Shown: positions 24,653-30,008 of the stretch, piece by piece | Numbering within the stretch: the stretch's first letter is position 1 | Layout of the letters: every line of letters begins with the position of its first letter | Origin: an uncultured Clostridia bacterium | GTDB lineage: Bacteria > Bacillota > Clostridia > TANB77 > CAG-508 | Assembly (NCBI GenBank): GCA_944390695.1 | Contig: CALXQP010000030.1 | Span: 1-33,176 of the forward strand | DNA: 33,176 bases | Direction of reading: 5' to 3' | Notes under the pieces: model-generated | The model's database searches: none | The model's input: only the letters and a program-made list of their open reading frames with translations | What the model was told of the DNA's origin: nothing | Made by a program: the position numbers and the translations under genes

Positions 24653-26362
24653 ATGATAGATTTTAAAGAAATAATTGCAAATGCAATATCAAATGTACTA
24701 CAATTAGATGTAAATGAAATAAAAATGTCAATAGAAAAGCCAAAAGGAGCAGATAATGGTGATTATGCTTATCCATGTTTCAGATTAGCAAAAACATTAA
24801 AAAAATCGCCACAGATGATTGCAGAAGAAATTAAAGGAAAAATAGATTTAGATAAAAATCAAATTATAAAAGTTGAAACAGTTGGTGGATATGTAAACTT
24901 TTTTGTGAATAAAGAATTATTAGCAAAAGAAGTTATTTCAGAAATTTCAAGTCAACAACAATATGGAAGTTCTAAAATAGGAAATGGCAAAAATATAGTT
25001 ATAGATTATTCTGCACCTAATATTGCTAAACAATTTCATATAGGTCATTTGCGTTCAACAGTAATAGGTGCAGCATTATATAATATATATAAATATTTAG
25101 GATATAATGTTACTGGAATAAACCATTTAGGTGATTATGGAACTCAATTTGGAAAATTAATAGAAGGATATAAATTATGGGGAGATGAATATGATATAGA
25201 TTCAAACCCTATTGATGAATTAAATAAAATATATATACGAATAAATCAAGCTTGTAAAGAAGATGAACAAATTCTAGAAAATTGTAGAAATAATTTCAAG
25301 AAATTAGAAGATGGAGATCCATATTGTTTAGAATTATGGAATAAGTTTAAAGATTTAAGTTTAAAAGAATTTCAAAAAGTATATGATATATTAGGCAGTA
25401 AATTTGATTCTTGGAATGGAGAGGCTTTTTATTCAGATAAAATGCCTGAAGTAATAGAGATTTTAGAAAAATCAGGAAAGTTGACAGAATCTCAAGGGGC
25501 TAGAATTATAGATTTAGAAGATAAAGGAATAAATACACCTTGTATTATAGAAAAATCAAATGGTTCTACAACTTATGCAACTAGAGACTTAGCAGCAATT
25601 ATGTATAGAGCTAGAAATTATGATTTTGATAAAGCTTTATATGTAACTTCTTATGAACAAGTTCTTCATTTTAAACAAGTTTTTGAAGTAGCTAAATTAT
25701 TAGGATTAGATGAAAAATACACTAATGGCTTAGAACATATTTCTTTTGGAATGGTATTATTGCCAACAGGCAAAATGTCAACTCGAGAAGGTACAAGCGT
25801 GAAATTAAATGATTTATTAGATGAAGCAATATCAAGAGCAAAAGCAATTATTGAACAGAAAAATCCTGATTTGCAAAATAAAGAAGATGTTGCCAAAAAA
25901 GTTGGAGTAGGTGCAGTAATATTTAATGATTTATTTAATAGTAGAGTTAAAGATGAAATATTTGATTGGGATACAATGTTAAATTTTCAAGGAGAAACTG
26001 GTCCATATGTTCAATATACTTATGTTCGTACCAAAAGTGTTATTGAAAAAGCAGGAGGAGTACCAAATATATTAGATGTAGATCCTAAATTATTGCAAGA
26101 TGAATATTCAATTAGATTATTTAAACTTATCTATGGTTTTGAAGATATTTTGTTACAAGTTACTGATAAAAATGAGCCATCTATATTATCAAGATATTTG
26201 ATTGATTTGGCTAAAACTTATAGTAATTTTTATAATGAAAATAAAATCATACTTGATGATAAATCTTTGCAAAATGCACGTGTGTTTTTGACTTATGCTG
26301 TAGGTCAGGTGTTAAAAAACGGAGCTGAGTTATTAGGAATGCAAATGCCTGAAAAAATGTAA
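24653..26362 (+). CDS. argS: Arginyl-tRNA synthetase
   Basis: A 569-residue class I synthetase that charges tRNA-Arg. The N-terminal additional domain (about 1-105, with GDYAYPCFRLAKTLKKSP) is followed by the HIGH motif in SAPNIAKQFHIGHLRST, the KMSKS position reads KMSTREGTSV as is common in ArgRS, and the C-terminal anticodon-binding domain includes LSRYLIDLAKTYSNFYNE. The family requires tRNA for activation. The ATG at 24653 is chosen because AAGGA ends 9 nt before it; an in-frame ATG at 24599 lies inside cysS. It follows cysS by 28 nt, so both are probably co-transcribed. A 23-bp inverted repeat lies 27 nt after the stop. Confidence 0.95.
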   Translation: MIDFKEIIANAISNVLQLDVNEIKMSIEKPKGADNGDYAYPCFRLAKTLKKSPQMIAEEIKGKIDLDKNQIIKVETVGGYVNFFVNKELLAKEVISEISSQQQYGSSKIGNGKNIVIDYSAPNIAKQFHIGHLRSTVIGAALYNIYKYLGYNVTGINHLGDYGTQFGKLIEGYKLWGDEYDIDSNPIDELNKIYIRINQACKEDEQILENCRNNFKKLEDGDPYCLELWNKFKDLSLKEFQKVYDILGSKFDSWNGEAFYSDKMPEVIEILEKSGKLTESQGARIIDLEDKGINTPCIIEKSNGSTTYATRDLAAIMYRARNYDFDKALYVTSYEQVLHFKQVFEVAKLLGLDEKYTNGLEHISFGMVLLPTGKMSTREGTSVKLNDLLDEAISRAKAIIEQKNPDLQNKEDVAKKVGVGAVIFNDLFNSRVKDEIFDWDTMLNFQGETGPYVQYTYVRTKSVIEKAGGVPNILDVDPKLLQDEYSIRLFKLIYGFEDILLQVTDKNEPSILSRYLIDLAKTYSNFYNENKIILDDKSLQNARVFLTYAVGQVLKNGAELLGMQMPEKM

Positions 26363-26389
26363 TCAAAAGATGAGCATTGTTCACTCAAT

Positions 26390-26483
26390 AAAAAACTGAA
26401 TATATTATTATTCCATGGCTGAACCATGCCATGGTCTTCGTAAACATGCTCAGCCTTTGCAATAATAATATATTCAGTTTTTT
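26390..26483. terminator. Perfect 23-bp inverted repeat after argS enclosing structured element (family 2, copy 1)
   Basis: The arms 26390-26412 and 26461-26483 are perfect complements (AAAAAACTGAATATATT at the outer left) and the right arm ends in a T-run, so it can terminate argS. The 48-nt interior (26413-26460) can itself fold: GGCTGA pairs with TCAGCC and ACCAT with ATGGT around GCC. The interior is about 80 percent identical to 29942-29990, so it is also a copy of a dispersed element. With the leader that follows, it fills the gap of 312 bases before the next gene. Confidence 0.75.
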
Positions 26484-26495
26484 TCTTTAGTCAGA

Positions 26496-26668
26496 ATAAA
26501 GCTTGAAAATCATTGACTTTTCAAGAAAAATATTGTATAATAGATTCGATGTGGCAAATATGCCATGTCGTTACTTTTTTTCTACTAAATAGTAGGAGAT
26601 AAATTTTCTCTTGCTCTTTAGTTTGCAATATAGTTCGCATTAAAAACTTGAGAGAAGAAGAAAGGGTG
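26496..26668 (+). promoter_or_regulatory. Duplicated promoter-leader, copy 1
   Basis: This 173-nt segment is 97 percent identical (5 substitutions, no indels) to 27299-27471. It holds TTGACT (26513-26518), a 17-bp spacer and TATAAT (26536-26541). A perfect 8-bp inverted repeat, CTTGAAAA (26502-26509) and TTTTCAAG (26518-26525), surrounds the -35 and may be an operator. The predicted transcript begins near 26548 with a 10-bp hairpin, CGATGTGGCA-AATA-TGCCATGTCG (26547-26570), followed by CTACT-AAAT-AGTAG, a pyrimidine run and the polypurine ribosome site GAAGAAAGGG. The leader is about 127 nt. Confidence 0.8.
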
Positions 26669-26674
26669 TTGAAA

Positions 26675-27106
26675 ATGTTGAAAGCATCACTTGCGCAGCT
26701 AAAGGCTGCCGATGCGCTCGTGGAGCGGTGTATGGAAATCAACTACACTGCTACAGAAGAGAAAAACAAGATCGAGAAAGTCGCCCAAAACCTGTTCTTC
26801 TGGATTTTACACCAGATGAATGAAAGAGCCATCTTTGTCTCAGATATGGGAAAAAATCACATGGACGAGATAGAGATGAAGTTCGAGTTTGAAGTCACTG
26901 AATTTTCATTCAAGTTGATGGATGCAACCTATGCCGGAAGCAGCAACTTCGTGGTACTGAAAGGAATATTGAACCTTTCTGAGCTCAAAAGAGTTAGGGA
27001 AAGGTTGAAAGATACTTTCAACCAGTTACCCAATTACAAAGCATGGACTTATATGCAAAAAGGCGAAAACCTTGAAGGACTCAAGGTGAGACTTGAACTC
27101 TTATAG
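26675..27106 (+). CDS. Orphan paralogue 1, unrecognised small protein
   Basis: A 143-residue soluble protein that I do not recognise. It starts MLKASLAQLKAADALVERC, continues with a helical first half, NLFFWILHQMN near 39-49, then beta-rich MDEIEMKFEFEVTEFSFKLMDATYAGSSNF and a C-terminal DTFNQLPNYKAW block. It has no signal peptide, membrane helix or zinc motif. The ATG at 26675 is chosen because GAAAGGGTG precedes it; a TTG 27 nt earlier has no ribosome site. The coding GC is visibly higher than in neighbours (codons such as GCG, CTC, CGG), suggesting transfer. It is about 40 percent identical to the gene at 27478, which has an almost identical leader. Function is unknown. Confidence 0.75.
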   Translation: MLKASLAQLKAADALVERCMEINYTATEEKNKIEKVAQNLFFWILHQMNERAIFVSDMGKNHMDEIEMKFEFEVTEFSFKLMDATYAGSSNFVVLKGILNLSELKRVRERLKDTFNQLPNYKAWTYMQKGENLEGLKVRLELL

Positions 27107-27125
27107 ACAACTTTCTTATGAGAGA

Positions 27126-27167
27126 AACCAGAAAAAGCAGATTAAAAAATCTGCTTTTTCTGGTTTT
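27126..27167 (+). terminator. Strong terminator after orphan paralogue 1
   Basis: An 18-bp perfect stem (27126-27143 with 27148-27165; core CCAGAAAAAGCAGATT) with an AAAA loop, then TTTT (27164-27167 in and after the stem). It makes the first orphan gene a separate transcription unit. Confidence 0.88.
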
Positions 27168-27190
27168 AAAAGGTTATAAATTATGCTTCA

Positions 27191-27292
27191 GGTCAATTGT
27201 AAAATTAAAATATGTTTTTTTTAGATGAAAGTATATTGGAAATTATATTTCGGTCAATTGAAAAGTTAAATGTAATTTCGAAATTATATTTC
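27191..27292. repeat. Short direct repeats upstream of the second orphan unit
   Basis: GGTCAATTG-x-AAA-x-TTAAA occurs at 27191-27209 and 27252-27270 (17 of 19 identical). GAAATTATATTTC, itself nearly palindromic, occurs at 27239-27251 and 27280-27292. These lie between the first terminator and the second promoter and have no counterpart before copy 1. They may be regulator sites or remnants of the duplication. Confidence 0.45.
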
Positions 27293-27298
27293 ATTTCG

Positions 27299-27471
27299 AT
27301 AAAGCTTGAAAATCATTGACTTTTCAAGCAAAATGTTGTATAATAACTTCGATGTGGCAAATATGCCATGTCGTTACTTTTTTTCTACTAAATAGTAGGA
27401 GAAAAATTTTCTCTTGCTCTTTAGTTTGCAATATAGTTCGCATTAAAAACTTGAGAGAAGAAGAAAGGGTG
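27299..27471 (+). promoter_or_regulatory. Duplicated promoter-leader, copy 2
   Basis: Copy 2 of the 173-nt segment. TTGACT is at 27316-27321 and TATAAT at 27339-27344 (17-bp spacer), with the same 8-bp inverted repeat around the -35 and the same 5' hairpin (27350-27373). The five differences from copy 1 fall in the promoter spacer and just after the -10 (four) and one in the leader, so both hairpins are unchanged. Confidence 0.8.
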
Positions 27472-27477
27472 GCTGAA

Positions 27478-27912
27478 ATGTTGAAACTCTCACTTGCACA
27501 GCTAAAAGCAGCTGATGCTCTTGCGGAGCGGTGCGCTGATTTAGCGTATTCCAAGGGCCAAGAGAGGAATGTGTGTGAAAAGACGACTGAAGATATATTC
27601 TTCTGGGTCTTGCACCGAATGAACAAGGAGCTGGTCTCTTCGATAGATACTAGCTTCAAGAGTGAGATCGAACTCAGGTTTGAGTTACAAAGGAGTGAGT
27701 TGACGGGCTGTTTCGAAATAGTGAATGCAACTTATTCGACCTCTTCAAACGATTTCAAGGTCTTAAAAGAAATTATGGACGTGGATTCTGCGAAAAAGGT
27801 CATGGGGGAATTGGCTGAGTCGTTTAACCAAATTCCTGATTACACGGCAAGGGTATGCAAGACCAAGGGGGAGGGCCTGCTAGATTTTATTATCAGGCTT
27901 GACGTTCTGTAA
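27478..27912 (+). CDS. Orphan paralogue 2, unrecognised small protein
   Basis: A 144-residue paralogue of the gene at 26675, starting MLKLSLAQLKAADALAERC. Shared blocks are the N-terminus, DIFFWVLHRMN, SEIELRFELQRSE, NATYSTSSNDFKVLK and ESFNQIPDYTAR, ending in IIRLDVL versus VRLELL. The first 19 residues and the ESFNQ region are the most conserved. No catalytic motif is seen. ATG 27478 is preceded by GAAAGGGTGGCT. A longer in-frame reading through the leader is rejected because the same frame in copy 1 has a TAA and the leader is conserved as RNA-like sequence. Coding GC is higher than in neighbours. Function is unknown; the pair could be sensors, immunity-type or antitoxin-type proteins, but nothing in the sequence decides this. 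Confidence 0.75.
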   Translation: MLKLSLAQLKAADALAERCADLAYSKGQERNVCEKTTEDIFFWVLHRMNKELVSSIDTSFKSEIELRFELQRSELTGCFEIVNATYSTSSNDFKVLKEIMDVDSAKKVMGELAESFNQIPDYTARVCKTKGEGLLDFIIRLDVL

Positions 27913-27936
27913 ATCCTATCATCAAGGGAAATTAGG

Positions 27937-27962
27937 AAAAGGTGGCTTTGTTGCCACCTTTT
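27937..27962 (+). terminator. Terminator after orphan paralogue 2
   Basis: AAAAGGTGGC (27937-27946) and GCCACCTTTT (27953-27962) form a 10-bp stem with a TTTGTT loop; the U-run is short (TTTT). Confidence 0.75.
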
Positions 27963-27975
27963 GGCATATAATATG

Positions 27976-28004
27976 TTAACAGAATAAAAAAATAATCATA
28001 TAAT
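27976..28004 (+). promoter_or_regulatory. Promoter of the cysteine synthase-like gene
   Basis: TTAACA (27976-27981), a 17-bp spacer and TATAAT (27999-28004), 81 bp before the start codon. Confidence 0.6.
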
Positions 28005-28026
28005 ATACTAAATAAAAAAGTATAAG

Positions 28027-28066
28027 CTATGTAGACAATTTATAAATAATGTTTACATAGTTTTTT
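28027..28066 (+). promoter_or_regulatory. Terminator-like hairpin in the cysK-like leader
   Basis: CTATGTAGACA (28027-28037) pairs with TGTTTACATAG (28050-28060), 11 pairs with one G-U, followed by TTTTTT (28061-28066). It lies between the promoter and the start codon, so it could act as an attenuator. No T-box or known riboswitch pattern is recognised. Confidence 0.5.
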
Positions 28067-28085
28067 GTATAAAGGAGGATATTAA

Positions 28086-29054
28086 ATGGAAAAATTAGAG
28101 AAAATTATAGGAAATACTCCAATGATAAGATTAAATTATGAATTAAATGGCGAAAAAAGAAGTATATATGTTAAATTAGAATATTATAATTTAACAGGAA
28201 GTATAAAAGATAGGGTAGCATATTATATAATTAAAAATGCAAAAAAAAATAAATTACTGAAAGATAATATGCCAATAGTAGAGGCTACTAGTGGAAATAC
28301 GGGAATCGCATTATCAGCTTTAGGTGCATATTATAATCATCCAGTATATATTTATATGCCCAATTGGGTAAGTAAGGAAAGGGTAAATTTAATGAAATCA
28401 TATGGAGCAAATATTATCTTAATCTCGAAAGAAGAAGGAGGGTTTATTAAATGTGTTGAAGAAGCAAAGAAAAAAACAGAGGAAATACATGGCTTTTGGG
28501 CTAATCAATTTGCTAATCAGGACAACTATCTAGCACATTTTGAAACAACTGGAAGAGAGATAATCAAGCAGTTGCCAGAAAAAGTATATGCATTTATTTC
28601 AGGAGTTGGAACAGGAGGGACTTTAATGGGAATAGGAAAAAGATTAAGAGAAGAATTTAAAGAACTTAAAATAGTAGCCTTAGAACCAGACAAGATGCCA
28701 ATAATATCTCAAGGAAAGATAATAAGTAACCATAAAATAGAAGGGATTGGAGATGATTTTGTTCCAGATTTAATAGATAAAAAAGCAATAAATGATATTG
28801 AATTAGTTAATGATGATGATGCTATAAATATGTCAAAACGATTAGCAAAAGAATTAGGTTTGGGAGTTGGGATATCTTCTGGGGCAAATATAATTGCATC
28901 TATTTTATTTCAGGAAAAGATGGATAAACCAGTAGTTACAGTTTTTGCAGATGATAATAAAAAATATTTATCAACAGAATTGATGGGAGAAGTTCAAAAA
29001 AATAAAAAATTTATTTCAAATAGTATTAAGTTATTAAATTATGAACAAGTATAA
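28086..29054 (+). CDS. Cysteine synthase-like PLP enzyme
   Basis: A 322-residue fold-type II PLP enzyme of the cysteine synthase family, which makes cysteine from O-acetylserine and sulfide. The PLP lysine is K41 in TGSIKDR, followed by ATSGNTGIALSALG (about 67-80), the phosphate-binding GVGTGGT and the late GISSGAN. The lysine motif reads LTGSIKDR rather than the usual NPGGSVKDR, so a related activity (cystathionine beta-synthase-like or another beta-replacement) cannot be excluded. The AAAGGAGG site 6 nt before the ATG is strong. It has its own promoter and a leader with a terminator-like hairpin, and faces deoD convergently. Confidence 0.85.
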   Translation: MEKLEKIIGNTPMIRLNYELNGEKRSIYVKLEYYNLTGSIKDRVAYYIIKNAKKNKLLKDNMPIVEATSGNTGIALSALGAYYNHPVYIYMPNWVSKERVNLMKSYGANIILISKEEGGFIKCVEEAKKKTEEIHGFWANQFANQDNYLAHFETTGREIIKQLPEKVYAFISGVGTGGTLMGIGKRLREEFKELKIVALEPDKMPIISQGKIISNHKIEGIGDDFVPDLIDKKAINDIELVNDDDAINMSKRLAKELGLGVGISSGANIIASILFQEKMDKPVVTVFADDNKKYLSTELMGEVQKNKKFISNSIKLLNYEQV

Positions 29055-29941: not shown

Positions 29942-30008
29942 CATGGCCGAACCATGCCAAGGTTTTCGTACCAAGCTCAGTCTTTGGCGAAGTAATATAT
30001 TTTCAGGA
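29942..30008 (+). repeat. Dispersed structured element, family 2 copy 2
   Basis: The segment starting CATGGCCGAACCATGCCA matches the argS-distal element at 26414 (CATGGCTGAACCATGCCA) and continues through TTCGTA, GCTCAG, CTTTG and TAATATATT-TCAG, about 80 percent identity with one or two gaps. Unlike copy 1 it lacks perfect flanking arms. It occupies the middle of the 328-base gap between divergent deoD and the alarmone synthetase gene; the rest of that gap holds the deoD promoter and AT-rich sequence. Confidence 0.65.

Follow-up and report, generated by a model that had tools for sequence, protein, structure and literature searches.

Two small genes of an uncultured Clostridia bacterium, lying one behind the other, are in our view tandem members of a fast-diverging protein family, whose units were likely acquired horizontally and whose common leader was likely homogenised by gene conversion together with selection and would switch both genes on together; we give this reading a probability of roughly 0.55. 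The window in which they lie, a stretch of 33,176 nucleotides, is contig 30 of a draft genome of 1.3 Mb in 69 contigs, 86%-complete. ORF A (26675..27106, forward strand, 143 aa, with an FFW motif in predicted helix 2) and ORF B (27478..27912, forward strand, 144 aa), both members of the family, are found between argS, which ends at 26362, and a cysK-like gene at 28086. Their proteins are 46% identical in a pairwise alignment, slightly above the figure of about 40 percent given in a previous sequence-only reading of this DNA, and 16 of the first 18 residues coincide. The same reading had placed them in a higher-GC island with deviating codon composition, which is borne out by a GC content of 0.42 and 0.45 for the two genes versus 0.28 in the flanks, and by GC3 values of 0.53 and 0.54 versus a mean of 0.12 in six neighbouring ORFs. 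Independent support for ORF A comes from a protein database, where its 90%-identity cluster comprises two contigs, the longest of which (72,207 bases) exceeds that of the window.

Among the 29 argS loci of relatives that were read, argS and deoD are directly adjacent, without A, B or cysK, in three genomes (G052, G055 and G103), so that the A/B region is an insertion relative to these. Positions 26389-26487, in the gap that separates argS from ORF A, form a hairpin element of about 100 nt with 26-nt arms; the motif of its loop is repeated around 29942-29970, the two copies thus flanking ORF A, ORF B, cysK and deoD, and a shortened form of the motif was absent from the fetched loci of other genomes. 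As a separate observation on argS, this gene appears as two overlapping pieces, meeting near codon 233-260, in eight genomes (G002, G024, G048, G067, G074, G084, G109 and G113), as if an intervening sequence, a frameshift or an intron were involved.

Each of the two genes would form a unit of its own, likely horizontally acquired, with predicted promoter, leader, gene and terminator. The promoters read TTGACT-17-TATAAT and lie on the forward strand at 26513..26541 for ORF A, with 11 of 12 consensus positions, and at 27316..27344 for ORF B, as located by a promoter scan. Both are overlapped by a perfect palindrome, CTTGAAAA-N8-TTTTCAAG, identical in the two copies, which covers the -35 element at 26502..26525 (+) and recurs 5' of ORF B at 27305..27328 (+) in a genome pattern search, and which is a candidate operator. 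With 22 letters of this 24-nt stretch fixed and up to three mismatches allowed, these two sites were the only ones in the genome, and the reversed control gave 0. Transcription would start from the consensus-like promoter, and the first 22 nt of the transcript would fold into a hairpin that may serve either as a stabiliser shielding the 5' end or as an early attenuator. For ORF A this hairpin (26547..26570, +), followed by a U-run, has a 10-pair stem that was flagged as terminator-like and is present in the minimum-energy fold; its counterpart for ORF B (27350..27373, +) was found by folding and by the terminator scan. At the other end of the units, a hairpin closes both genes, with a perfect 19-bp stem for ORF A (27125..27166, +) and a 10-bp stem recognised by eye, AAAAGGTGGC/GCCACCTTTT, for ORF B (27937..27962, +). 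The idea that each gene has its own, likely terminator is plausible to this extent, but the terminator scan flagged neither hairpin.

The transcribed leaders, of about 127 nt from a predicted start site, extend over 26548..26674 for ORF A and 27351..27477 for ORF B (both +), each with an internal hairpin found by folding and scan (26591..26615 and 27394..27418, +). Their folding is stronger than that of dinucleotide shuffles, with a z of -2.9 on one span and -4.0 on another. A masking of the Shine-Dalgarno core by the leader was considered and dropped, since shuffled leaders mask it as well (81 of 200 as low). An Rfam scan of positions 26000-28200 reached no gathering score, the best match (E 0.0015) being a microRNA model on the hairpin 3' of ORF A. 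Among 14 family members examined, one of them with a leader too short, a folded leader (z < -2) occurs in A, B, G316, G417 and G468 only; the leaders of the other members differ from that of the window, most being short and folding no more strongly than shuffles. The window leader is therefore not supported as a family-wide element.

As first described, the near-identical promoter-leader segments comprise 173 nt (26496-26668 and 27299-27471) with five substitutions and no indel. The substitutions fall at window positions 26526, 26532, 26543, 26544 and 26600, which leaves a single difference in the 121 nt from 26548 to 26668; four more differences then crowd into the last 6 nt 5' of the start codon, past the Shine-Dalgarno stretch, at 26669-26672. 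The leader repeat continues for 235 nt into the genes at 92% identity, and within the coding sequence the Nei-Gojobori proportions rise from a pS of 0.58 and a pN of 0.12 in codons 1-20 to 0.92 and 0.37 in codons 21-143. The earlier statement that the leader is far more constant than the coding sequence is thus upheld, synonymous sites being saturated past codon 20, and the trend is repeated in a second pair. This pair, from other species, is formed by G316 and G417 (L160 and L161 among the named records), whose proteins are 57% identical with a pS of 0.65. Aligned from the -10 box through to the start codon, the two sequences agree in 64 of 69 columns, with two single-base indels in addition; the terminators are conserved as well, while the likeness fades outside promoter and terminator and the flanks are unrelated. 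Scanned with A plus B, the named genomes gave no match; scanned with the G316/G417 pair, they gave two loci. In the leader hairpin and in the terminator hairpin of this pair there is one compensated pair each, from two sequences; about half of the shuffles equal this (247 and 245 of 500), and as a sign of kept structure these changes would be suggestive only.

Several explanations for such a constant leader were weighed. A recent duplication, after which selection diversified the protein, would account for the near-identical leaders and for the 16 of 18 identical first residues, but it is highly improbable, given that most of the gene is saturated at synonymous sites (pS 0.92 beyond codon 20) and that pN stays below pS, an argument that would lose its force if recombination had replaced the later stretch of one gene; A and B are on these grounds old paralogues, and the near-identity of their leaders has no explanation in a recent event. 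The main rival, which we regard as rather unlikely, holds that the leader is a riboregulator under purifying selection strong enough on its own, without any gene conversion. Such a view agrees with the jump in divergence just 5' of the start codon (four of the last six leader bases, and then a pS of 0.58 in codons 1-20), with a folding beyond that of shuffles by a z of about -3 to -4, and with the likewise conserved leader of G316/G417 and its compensated pair. Against it, the loops and unpaired stretches of the A and B leaders are unchanged too, which is why we favour homogenisation by gene conversion, and the G316/G417 leader has accumulated five substitutions and two single-base indels in 71 columns at a pS of 0.65. 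Having changed more at a lower synonymous divergence, this second leader makes one difference in 121 nt seem too few for constraint alone. Neither does the leader belong to any Rfam family, nor did it find relatives elsewhere: matches to its DNA at E <= 0.001 occur in 45 of 192 genomes, its own included, but in the 191 others the 53 matches listed are of only 21-51 nt, 44 of them covering the promoter end of the query and the other 9 falling within its leader, and were taken as chance or promoter likeness, although a diverged leader could have escaped, since four candidates were scored per genome. Under the preferred reading, gene conversion on top of selection would have kept the leaders of the tandem copies near-identical, and this shared leader would switch both genes on together.

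A multi-copy, co-regulated set with further members elsewhere in the genome had also been anticipated. This was not borne out in the 1.3 Mb, 86%-complete assembly, where the leader DNA, ORF A and the family profile each give exactly two copies. The description of A and B as orphans needs a similar qualification: no curated family recognises them, as had been stated, yet iterated profiles place them in a wider family. Matches to A and B stayed far below the cut-offs in Pfam (best E 0.13 and 0.044) and in NCBIfam (0.029 and 0.077); in PHROGs the best E-values were 0.02 and 0.045. Searching 5.8 billion proteins with A, or with A and B, recovered only copies of the window's own proteins, whereas a 12-row alignment returned five proteins, two of them named as a hypothetical protein of 'Clostridiales' or 'Clostridia bacterium'. 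The literature offered parallels and no paper on the family, whose lack of a name bars a direct search.

The family is hyperdivergent, its members being mostly of 115-150 aa with an F-x-W motif in which F and W are each kept in 18 of 20 alignment rows, and it is present in at least 16 genomes of the order, one copy being decayed; this count is a lower bound, since unread weak matches may hide members. A profile of A and B matched 38 of 385 genomes of the order at E <= 0.05; seven of these loci were read and three were taken for having the same size and the same motif, providing the first links with per-genome E-values of 8e-5 (G392, with two members in tandem behind tuf), 3e-4 (G379, behind pnp) and 0.004 (G126, an array of four). 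Iterated profiles then added G219, G491, G440, G124, G134, G398, G397, G417, G316, G468, G152 and the decayed copy of G246. In the second round, 15 of 243 genomes matched at E <= 0.01 and six loci were read, from which G219, G491, G440, the decayed G246 and later G468 were taken and G496 was left out. In a further round, with 34 of 385 genomes at E <= 0.01, we accepted G316 and the 12 genomes whose E was 2.4e-5 or lower. Matches in a sample of the class amounted to 9 of 291 genomes, only G000 and G124 being credible, and the last round (4 of 28 genomes) contributed G124, G134 and G152. G316 and G468, which resemble G417 and one another (identity to G316 of 57% for G417 and 32% for G468), were accepted on this ground and on a hold-out E of 9e-5. 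Matches of 117-128 aa behind infB (G373, G440:C28 and G329) looked RbfA-like by eye and were rejected.

When groups were held out and the profile was rebuilt, all 12 of 12 were recovered at E-values of 2.4e-22 to 1.5e-4 (for a nominal 2000 sequences), and a profile made without A and B found A at 8.7e-9 and B at 1.7e-8. As recruitment started from A and B through weak first links, these recoveries speak for consistency and not for full independence. Judged by such profile comparisons, the family, absent from the searched libraries, is real and well supported. The G246 member (L110 / L140) carries internal stop codons in a gatC neighbourhood where the G491 copy is intact, and is a case of loss in progress.

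With A and B as the only input, the predicted structure was poor (pLDDT 54.8), and a usable model, of the G126a member (pLDDT 87.2, pTM 0.81), was obtained only from the 20-row alignment; this model had no clear match to a solved fold. The product is predicted to be a soluble alpha-alpha-beta-beta-alpha-beta-beta domain, a fold assigned to A and B by homology, since the usable model is that of the G126a member. The N-terminus, MLKASLAQLKAADALVERC, has by eye no hydrophobic stretch and aligns with helix 3-22 of this model. A hint at function is given by the G124 member, in which a Spo0A C-terminal DNA-binding domain (PF08769; E 1.5e-8, above the Pfam cut-off) stands in front of the family domain, itself recovered in the hold-out at 3.2e-9. 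This fusion, of which there is one occurrence, is the only match that passed a cut-off, and it does so outside the family domain; ORF A and ORF B do not contain Spo0A_C. Spo0A itself has a receiver domain in place of the family domain. On the strength of this one relative, binding of a partner or ligand is likely for the stand-alone forms; that they may in this way feed a regulatory or protective response is the weakest step of the argument.

The units likely spread between species, as suggested by their occurrence singly or in small sets, by their differing neighbours and by their higher GC. Members adjoin genes as different as tuf, pnp, smc, gatC, eno, pyrB and others (named by eye), and GC3 is higher than in the neighbouring ORFs for 20 of 20, by 0.05 or less in six of them (G126b, c and d, G392b, G124 and G134) and by less than 0.01 in one. 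No neighbouring gene has a GC3 as high as that of the member in 12 of 15 loci (all except G126, G440 and G124); this excess could have a cause other than transfer. Moreover, the members of G134 and G398, two genomes that belong to separate families within the order, share 54% identity, versus 13-36% between the alignment rows and the first row, which fits transfer. A tRNA-linked integration was dropped, ARAGORN giving one tRNA in 15 regions, and the units are not linked to any mobile-element gene; recombinase-like fragments adjoin the member only in G316, as two ORFs that resemble by eye pieces of a tyrosine recombinase (L160:2290-3055, +), directly 5' of the family gene. Two other loci have singular neighbours. 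Within the array of four members in G126 there is a gene that looks by eye like a second ribosomal protein S11 (L099:903-1307, -). In G134, a gene resembling by eye a P-loop NTPase with a CYTH-type domain (L138:1830-2990, -) ends where the frame of the member begins, for which reason the two may share an operon; the G152 member also lies close behind another ORF.

A phage or plasmid origin was rejected, the searches having given no credible relative. By tblastn, ORF B found one phage record (E 0.7) and no plasmid; ORF A found no phage at E 10; the G316, G134 and G219 members found none among phages, nor G316 among plasmids; and the six phage records of G126a (E 3 to 9) were taken as chance. 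The leader DNA matched neither phages nor plasmids, and viral contigs, scanned with patterns that reach close relatives only, contained no credible relative. The best viral structure match, an uncharacterised siphovirus protein of 142 aa (Foldseek E 0.011, probability 0.93, TM 0.40, rmsd 8.6), was too weak to be retained.

An alternative for the proteins themselves is that they are stand-alone immunity or anti-mobile-element factors, passed on as orphan immunity genes are and without a regulatory role. Hyperdivergence and tandem copies (four in G126, two in G392 and two in the window) would be expected of such factors, as would the patchy distribution, in which 12 of 385 genomes examined within the order match at E 2.4e-5 or below, the decay in G246, and the fact that no neighbour gene is widely shared among the 25 most recurrent ORFs listed, of 183, a set made up largely of family members, M23-type peptidases and common genes. 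We nonetheless consider it unlikely: the 20-row alignment including A and B gave in PADLOC one weak match of one member (Cas11e, E 0.003), Imm63 was matched by one member only (E 0.068), no toxin partner was noticed in the course of an analysis without a dedicated search for one, and the Spo0A_C fusion points to regulation. The orphan immunity genes of gut bacteria, an acquired interbacterial defence, are likewise stand-alone, patchy, small and passed between bacteria (e.g. PMC10470768), and the A/B family differs from them in having no immunity-family match above cut-off.

The best parallel that we found to a constant leader in front of a free-running protein is that of the variable surface proteins of a pathogen. 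The erp (ospE/ospF-related) genes of Borrelia burgdorferi have a conserved promoter/operator, the 'upstream homology box', and co-expression of the copies is reported (PMC10016077). As in A and B, a constant promoter, operator and gene start precede a strongly divergent coding sequence, a likeness in kind and without sequence homology. The erp products are surface lipoproteins encoded on cp32 prophages, whereas A and B are only two and lie among housekeeping genes; moreover, the window proteins do not look like lipoproteins, judging by eye from the N-terminus, and for this reason A and B are not the erp family. A further likeness is to the FESNov unknown gene families of uncultivated taxa, which also belong to uncultured lineages and lack known homologues (PMC10849945).

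Altogether, two apparent orphans turn out to belong to a protein family for which a fold is predicted, a fusion hints at the role and the evolutionary pattern is clear. It is possible, and we propose it tentatively, that they represent a new class of travelling one-gene unit of uncultured Clostridia, made up of its own promoter, leader RNA and terminator around a fast-evolving, sensor-like domain, in which co-resident copies would be held as one regulon by a leader kept alike through conversion while their proteins diversify freely. The pair offers a concrete test of how uncultured bacteria with small genomes gain fast-evolving genes, keep them in step and lose them.
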